From assembly GCA_009995545.1 (NCBI GenBank), contig JAACPI010000007.1, positions 1 through 42,503 on the forward strand: a stretch of 42,503 nt of DNA, in the 5' to 3' direction. Position numbers and translations under genes: made by a program. This DNA is from a bacterium. Its GTDB lineage: Bacteria > Patescibacteriota > WWE3 > 2-01-FULL-39-13 > JAACPI01. This document shows positions 29,068-30,390 of this stretch, in pieces; position 1 is the first letter of the stretch; every line of letters starts with the position of its first letter. Below the pieces are notes generated by a model. That model was not told the origin of the DNA. It saw nothing but the letters and a program-made list of their open reading frames with translations, and did no database searches.

Positions 29068-30342
29068 CTACTCCACCCTTTTAACTTCTATATAATCTGT
29101 TTTTAGTAATTTACTTAATGTTTCAGCTATTAAATTGCTGTTTTTTACTTTGCTACAAGTAATTAAATCTATATGAATACTGCCAAATTCTGGCCATGTA
29201 TGAGCTATTAAATTGCTGTTTTGTAATACATACGTAAAAGTCTCCCCACCTTTTTCATCGAATTTTGTAAACATAAAGTCCTTTATTTTTAAACTATGTG
29301 ATTTGGCAAACTGTCTAATTAAATGGTCTAGTGCATTTTTATAAAACATTTGCTTTTCAACTTTTAGGATTTTAATTGAATACTGCTCTATATAAGGAAA
29401 GTTTTGGTTTTCGATAATTTCATAAGTATAAATATTTTTTACTTTAAACTCTTTTATTTTTGTCTGTGGCGTAGTTTTTAAAATATACAAGGAACTAACA
29501 CTGCCTATACTTTCGGCCCCAATATAATTATTAAAATTATTTATTTTATCCTCTATTAGCAAAGCGTATTCCCCTATTACCTGTTGAATAGCTAAAGTTT
29601 TTTCGGGAGATTTAAAACTGTTTCCATAATTTAAAAAGATGTATTTTCCACTAAAGTCAGTGTGACCTTTTAATAGCTGCAAAGATCTGTCTATAAAAAG
29701 TTTTATACCAGTGTAAGTATAGGGTGGGTCAATTAAAACAGAGTCGTACTTACCAAAATGCTGTGGGGGTATTTTATCCCTAGCGTCGTACTTAAGTACC
29801 TCTATATTTAGTTTATATTTCTCACTAATTTGTTTTATTTTTAAAACCAAGTTATCGTCTAACTCTAATACCGTAATTTTTAATAATTCGGGATACTTTT
29901 TAGCCAAAACTATAGAAACTAAGTCATCATCACCGATTAGTGCGACGGAATGTTTGTTACTAATTAAACCTTTTTTATCCAAAATTACTGCTTTTTGTAA
30001 ACTAGTTTGAGGCAGTGCAAAAAATTGATCGTATTCTCTTTTGTTAGCTTCAAAGGGCAATTTAAACTCTTTTCTGACACATGTAATGAACTCCTCTAAC
30101 TCAGGGTCAGAAATACTAAATAAACTCCAGTTATAAGCAGTAAAATCTAAATTTTTAAGATCTTTTATTTGAGGAATTGTTTTAACTAAAGCAGAAACAG
30201 TACTAGAGGGTAGTCCTGTCAAATGAACTATTTTAGAAATATCTTTAGTGTTTTCTTTTTTAACTAAGTATAAAACACCTTCAATCTCAGCTACTTTTAA
30301 ATCTTGATTATTTTTTGCAAGTTGCTCTACTAAGGCGTTCAT
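29068..30342 (-). CDS. BpsA-like branched-chain polyamine synthase fused to SpeD-like S-adenosylmethionine decarboxylase domain
   Basis: GDDDLVSIVLA, DPPYTYTG (BpsA/PF01861 motifs) plus C-terminal NSNLIAHTWPEFGSIHIDLITC (SpeD motif); start revised from 30378 to ATG 30342 because TATAAT lies at 30350-30355. Confidence 0.8.
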   Translation of the reverse strand: MNALVEQLAKNNQDLKVAEIEGVLYLVKKENTKDISKIVHLTGLPSSTVSALVKTIPQIKDLKNLDFTAYNWSLFSISDPELEEFITCVRKEFKLPFEANKREYDQFFALPQTSLQKAVILDKKGLISNKHSVALIGDDDLVSIVLAKKYPELLKITVLELDDNLVLKIKQISEKYKLNIEVLKYDARDKIPPQHFGKYDSVLIDPPYTYTGIKLFIDRSLQLLKGHTDFSGKYIFLNYGNSFKSPEKTLAIQQVIGEYALLIEDKINNFNNYIGAESIGSVSSLYILKTTPQTKIKEFKVKNIYTYEIIENQNFPYIEQYSIKILKVEKQMFYKNALDHLIRQFAKSHSLKIKDFMFTKFDEKGGETFTYVLQNSNLIAHTWPEFGSIHIDLITCSKVKNSNLIAETLSKLLKTDYIEVKRVE

Positions 30343-30349
30343 AGGGCTA

Positions 30350-30390
30350 ATTATAACATAATGCCTTAACAAAGGCACTAATGCTATAAT
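30350..30390. promoter_or_regulatory. divergent promoter pair (-10 boxes at 30350-30355 minus and 30385-30390 plus)
   Basis: Both TATAAT boxes lie exactly 7 nt from the ATG they serve (30342 minus, 30398 plus). Confidence 0.6.

Follow-up and report, generated by a model that had tools for sequence, protein, structure and literature searches.

A BpsA-type and a SpeD-type domain joined in a single open reading frame of WWE3 bacteria

Branched polyamines have been described as products of thermophiles (PMC12979288). In the BpsA of Thermococcus kodakarensis (Tk-BpsA), the GDDD motif positions the aminopropyl group of decarboxylated S-adenosylmethionine (dcSAM), and a flexible acidic C-terminal tail has been reported as the aminopropyl carrier (PMC12979288). 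Fusions of AdoMet decarboxylase (AdoMetDC) to aminopropyltransferases have been published from Ca. Pelagibacter, a delta-proteobacterium and Ca. Krumholzibacteria as well as for the ancestor of animal spermine synthase, and were shown in E. coli to be active on both counts (PMC11107197, PMC12803844). On the substrates of SpeD-type enzymes, Li et al. (PMC10407285) give four diagnostic residues (Gln, Thr, Phe, Tyr) for the pyruvoyl ornithine decarboxylase SpeDC and name loss of one conserved proline as a mark that separates arginine decarboxylases from AdoMetDC. A fusion of BpsA to SpeD did not turn up in a full-text literature search, with most subscription papers outside it; automatic domain databases may list this architecture.

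The window analyzed here is the whole stretch of 42,503 nucleotides of contig JAACPI010000007.1 from a WWE3 bacterium. The initial annotation had proposed a gene at 29068-30378 that encodes a branched polyamine synthase and an AdoMet decarboxylase in one polypeptide. A single ORF was indeed present at 29068-30378 on the minus strand, while translation probably does not begin at its GTG (30378): alignments to homologues begin at about residue 13 of the listed ORF, which makes the ATG at 30342 the likelier one. Residue numbers below refer to the 424-residue protein unless the listed ORF is named, and positions in the reference enzymes carry the prefix Tk (T. kodakarensis) or Tm (Thermotoga maritima). 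The features are as follows.

29068-30342, minus strand: fused bpsA-speD gene, 424 aa from ATG 30342, the Met from which homologues align; the listed ORF reaches GTG 30378
30052-30342, minus strand: N-terminal helical (winged-helix-like) domain, residues 1-97, matching the N-domains of Tk-BpsA and Pyrococcus furiosus 2qm3
29416-30042, minus strand: BpsA_C domain (PF01861), residues 101-309 of the 424-aa protein, from Pfam
29923-29934, minus strand: GDDD motif, residues 137-140, equivalent to Tk Gly157-Asp160 by alignment; function from PMC12979288
29716-29730, minus strand: DPPYT motif, residues 205-209, with Asp205 aligned to Tk Asp225
29395-29454, minus strand: joint or linker IYTYE..FPY, with residues 308-314 below pLDDT 50 in the model
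29074-29343, minus strand: AdoMet_dc/SpeD domain (PF02675), from profile searches
29215-29217, minus strand: Ser376, predicted pyruvoyl-forming serine (Tm Ser63 by alignment), within N-S-N
29200-29202, minus strand: His381 (Tm His68 by alignment)
29155-29157, minus strand: Cys396 (Tm Cys83 by alignment)

A TATAAT box ends a few bases upstream of ATG 30342, a spacing that would fit an mRNA with no leader or almost none. The gene is monocistronic, divergent from a short plus-strand gene and convergent with another gene, and its neighbors in the window are unrelated; a polyamine gene was not found among the clustered flanking ORFs of the WWE3 fusion loci. Operon context was for these reasons dropped as a guide to function. 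An imperfect inverted repeat (TAGTGCCTT-TGTT-AAGGCATTA, 30359-30380) lies in the 55-bp divergent intergenic region directly upstream of the TATAAT box and the fusion ATG and may be either operator-like or a product of chance.

That BpsA-type and SpeD-type domains are fused in this ORF was confirmed at the level of profiles, PDB sequence matches and fold. Pfam assigned BpsA_C to residues 113-321 of the listed ORF (E 3.8e-32, 111.9 bits; gathering cut-off 27 bits) and AdoMet_dc to residues 346-435 (E 1e-12, 48.8 bits; cut-off 25 bits), and sequence searches of the PDB gave a match for each half, namely Tk-BpsA 5xnc (2.3e-20) and T. maritima SpeD 1tlu (1.5e-4). NCBIfam TIGR03330 also matched (E 9.5e-12), but with 45.3 bits below the equivalog cut-off of 75.65. 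An AlphaFold2 model computed from 30 homologues (mean pLDDT 88, pTM 0.69) consists of two confident domains with a flexible join at 308-314, and its Foldseek matches include BpsA 5xnc_A (E 7.7e-19) and, with a TM score of 0.75 normalised to the target length and an rmsd of 2.3, T. maritima SpeD 1vr7. Profile, PDB match and fold together rule out a spurious short SpeD match. The N-domain profile aligns from its position 1 to chain positions 21-25 of the Tk-BpsA and 2qm3 entries.

The search for other fused homologues that had been suggested returned about 30 relatives with the same single ORF, almost all from candidate division WWE3 and including the complete chromosome CP006914, along with Erysipelothrix inopinata and a human-gut contig. 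Recurrence in some 30 independent assemblies, one of them a complete chromosome, rules out an assembly or frameshift artefact. Matches were obtained in 39 of 145 related genomes, mostly as one full-length ORF; a GTDB genome scan placed the fusion in 27 WWE3 or Patescibacteria records (CP006914 among them), and within 384 sampled Patescibacteria genomes it was confined to the class of the window. The nearest unfused relatives belong to Shapirobacteria, in which bpsA-like and speD genes are adjacent. In the two Shapirobacteria sequences that were read closely (L076, L077) the genes overlap by 8 nt, ATGACTAA, with BpsA ending in ...YTND and SpeD beginning with MTNFPFFQH. The two ends merge in the WWE3 fusion as IYTYE..FPF, and the linker resembles both the C-terminus of the separate BpsA (VYTND) and the N-terminus of the separate SpeD (MTNFPF). 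Given this match between the fusion and the overlapping ends, a small indel within the 8-nt overlap would be enough to fuse the genes.

The WWE3 fusions form one starred clade in both the BpsA-domain and the SpeD-domain tree. In the latter they group with the Shapirobacteria genes (100/99), and on this tree the fused state must have changed at least twice. Separate fusions were found in Erysipelothrix inopinata (L091, a single ORF) and in the human-gut contig (L131, 1606-3270), which is filed as a phage clone, unannotated and likely bacterial, and in which BpsA, a Cys-rich ribbon and SpeD follow one another; both carry SpeD with the canonical ESH...C. In Bipolaricaulota and Omnitrophota the two genes are successive in the same frame, and over many lineages bpsA-like and speD genes are adjacent or fused. 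Two arrangements were recorded alongside these. In Omnitrophota (L119 701-2389, L124 3629-5353) the BpsA-like protein has a zinc-ribbon-like extension with four Cys at its C-terminus, and the next gene, in the same frame, is SpeD-like and carries QSH...HSWVDE. Streptomyces loci (L089, L092, L099, L102, L104, L106, L108-L110, L112, L114, L127) hold a divergent pair of a DPPY-type BpsA-like and a SpeD-like gene, the latter having lost the Cys83 position (LLAYG).

Our preferred reading, to which we give a probability of roughly 60%, is a bifunctional enzyme, AdoMet decarboxylase and BpsA-like aminopropyltransferase in one, which would use imported SAM to modify imported amines. The C-terminal SpeD domain would cleave itself at Asn375-Ser376 to form a pyruvoyl group and would then decarboxylate S-adenosylmethionine to dcSAM, from which the BpsA-like Rossmann domain would move the aminopropyl group to an amine. 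The acceptor would most simply be a polyamine imported from the environment, and the reaction would yield MTA and a polyamine that is longer or branched. Fusion would set donor supply and transfer at 1:1 and close together, and would keep dcSAM, for which such a cell would have no other use, beside its only user. Every step of this scheme is inferred here, from self-cleavage and the making of dcSAM to the transfer itself, as are channelling and import. Of what was put forward at the outset, the family assignments, the catalytic residues and the logic of donor production plus transfer stand.

For the SpeD half, residues were counted over 30 WWE3-type fusions. The equivalents of the pyruvoyl-forming Ser63, of His68 and of Cys83, noted before in the single sequence, are present in 30/30, 29/30 and 29/30, respectively. 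Phe49 (30/30) and Glu72 (29/30) are likewise kept and the Ser55 position is Thr or Ser; we take these three to be substrate or processing positions of the T. maritima and human enzymes, with Glu72 binding ribose and Phe49 and Glu72 contacting AdoMet. The change from E-S-H to N-S-N, also seen initially, is a trait of the lineage, as Asn follows the catalytic Ser in 28 of the 30 fusions; Glu precedes it in none (0/30), the residue there being Asn in 22/30 and Gln in 2/30. Proline at Tm position 51 is lost, and P71 (of HTWPE) is kept in 28/30. Phage SpeDA and SpeDC were set aside as references for substrate type, since most of what the phage searches yielded was cyanophage AdoMetDC, along with a Pelagibacter record.

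These residues bear on two other readings of the SpeD half. It could be a neofunctionalised pyruvoyl decarboxylase acting on arginine, ornithine or another amino acid, as SpeDA and SpeDC do, and so supply the acceptor rather than the donor. Substrate shifts of this kind are widespread, including in members of the candidate phyla radiation (PMC10407285), and the loss of Tm P51, which accompanies the E62/H64 changes, may correspond to the proline mark of arginine decarboxylases; the genome is also without another arginine or ornithine decarboxylase. We nevertheless consider this unlikely, as the AdoMet-contacting Phe49 and Glu72 are kept, as is the other candidate proline (P71), and as the BpsA half would be left without dcSAM in a genome with no second SpeD. 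The altered ESH motif, from which a changed substrate had been suggested, is real but cannot by itself establish one: P51 is lost, whereas F49, E72 and the processing residues stay in place. Alternatively, the SpeD half might have given up decarboxylation and serve as a dimerisation or structural module, like the degenerate AdoMetDC domain that human spermine synthase retains and needs for dimer formation (PMC12803844). A few fusions do lack one catalytic residue (Cys to Phe in L031/L074, His to Arg in L019/L061), but a structural module would not need Ser, His and Cys, which divergent members keep in 29-30 of 30 cases, and we find this reading very improbable.

A separate observation concerns the DNA of the active site. 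The 30-nt stretch that codes for the pyruvoyl site (QNSNLIAHT; 29196-29225, minus strand) recurs in frame 78 nt downstream at 29118-29147 with 90% identity, the second copy reading KNSNLIAET. Since relatives carry NKExLADT there, a patch of active-site codons seems to have been copied locally within the SpeD half.

On the BpsA half, with the register taken from the PDB alignments and the Tk numbering in PMC12979288, the equivalents of Asp159 and Asp160 of GDDD, of Asp225 and of Tyr290 were each found in 30/30 WWE3-type fusions. Conservation of GDDD, together with its role in Tk-BpsA, indicates dcSAM as the donor. A Glu259 equivalent is absent, the position being aligned to Phe in NSFKSPEK in a register made less certain by nearby gaps. 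The acidic carrier tail is missing as well: unfused Patescibacteria relatives stop at VYTND, before the tail, and the fused linker holds 0-5 acidic residues that are not conserved and were for this reason rejected as a substitute aminopropyl carrier. Without the tail, transfer would be direct or proceed via other residues, and the Tk-BpsA ping-pong scheme should not be carried over to the fusion. In the BpsA-domain tree the DPPYT proteins form a clade apart from the characterised thermophilic BpsA. With a separate DPPYT clade, no Glu259 equivalent and no acidic tail, the branched product first proposed is not supported as such, and the name 'branched polyamine synthase' is unproven for this half; what it makes could be a polyamine, either branched or linear and longer, or an aminopropylated non-polyamine.

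DPPY is the usual motif of exocyclic-amine methyltransferases. The N-terminal half might accordingly be an N-methyltransferase that uses SAM, or it might transfer aminopropyl groups to a nucleobase, a peptide or another non-polyamine amine. The next-best matches of this half are the METTL5 and N6-adenine methylase families, the DPPYT clade stands apart from characterised BpsA, and the genome shows no polyamine synthesis; we still doubt this reading, because the GDDD motif, whose role in BpsA is to hold the aminopropyl amine of dcSAM, does not vary and because the fusion partner is SpeD. A broader and rather speculative proposal, which we hold to be improbable, is that DPPYT-clade BpsA-like proteins paired with or fused to SpeD use dcSAM on a non-spermidine target, for example an amine of a nucleobase, a peptide or a lipid, and do so in cells with no SAM or polyamine synthesis of their own. 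If true, aminopropylation of something besides free spermidine would be a new use of dcSAM.

The bifunctional reading requires substrates from outside, and the supply was addressed by family searches that each also matched in named control genomes, indicating that the models work. In the 872-kb genome the fusion gene accounts for the only SpeD and the only BpsA. PF02784, PF01862, PF01276 and PF01916 gave no match in it, i.e. a PLP-dependent ornithine or arginine decarboxylase of either fold, PvlArgDC and a member of the deoxyhypusine/homospermidine synthase family were not found. Its sole PF01564 (SpeE-like) protein, encoded on another contig (C4) behind serS, is without the GGGDG and DSSDP residues of the PDB spermidine synthases to which it aligns and was for this reason not counted as a canonical spermidine synthase. 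A motif-less protein of this kind is encoded behind serS in several other genomes of the class too (L034 at 1297-1983, L035, L036, L043), with uppP and sometimes a PAP2-like gene adjoining. SAM synthetase (PF02773, PF01941) was absent from the genome itself and from 28 of the 30 fusion-bearing genomes (among G000-G057), including a single-contig, 99% complete one (G021), and the MTA/SAH nucleosidase-phosphorylase family PF01048 was present in only 5/30.

Judged by these gene inventories, the cell appears unable to make SAM, putrescine or spermidine; if so, it must obtain both SAM and the acceptor amine externally, and MTA would be left unrecycled. Several of the results count against the preferred reading, namely the changed E62 and H64 beside the pyruvoyl Ser, the lost Tm P51, an AdoMet_dc score (48.8 bits) lower than the 142 and 112 bits of the canonical fusions in Erysipelothrix inopinata and the human-gut contig, the missing carrier tail and Glu259 equivalent, and the genomes without SAM synthetase (28/30) or PF01048 (25/30).

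A large clade of reduced bacteria, most of them from aquifers and sediments, retains a BpsA-like transferase joined to its feeder enzyme. As SAM synthetase and every putrescine route searched for are missing, the fusion appears to be a lone polyamine step retained for imported substrates. If the bifunctional reading is true, polyamine tailoring would be tied to the dependent life of WWE3-type bacteria, a compact enzyme would be able to make unusual polyamines from SAM and spermidine, and the locus would clearly illustrate how two genes overlapping by 8 nt can become fused.

Compared with N4-bis(aminopropyl)spermidine synthase (BpsA, EC 2.5.1.128) of T. kodakarensis and T. thermophilus, the fusion shares the PF01861 fold, the N-domain, GDDD, Asp225 and Tyr290; the characterised enzymes form a separate clade and have DPPE or DPVE, Glu259 and the acidic C-terminal carrier tail, whereas the fusion has DPPYT, carries SpeD in place of the tail and occurs in hosts known mostly as aquifer and sediment MAGs. 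With the class 1b SpeD of T. maritima (TM0655) it has in common the fold, Ser63, His68, Cys83, Phe49 and Glu72, and Ser55 as Thr or Ser, and it differs in having x-S-N instead of E-S-H, no P51 and a C-terminal position in a fusion. The published SpeD-SpeDC fusions (PMC10407285) likewise place SpeD in a polyamine polypeptide of several activities, but consist of two SpeD-type domains and have no aminopropyltransferase. The published AdoMetDC-aminopropyltransferase fusions also hold a donor-making and a donor-using domain in one chain; there, SpeD is N-terminal and the transferase of SpeE type (PF01564), whereas here SpeD is C-terminal and the transferase of BpsA type (PF01861).
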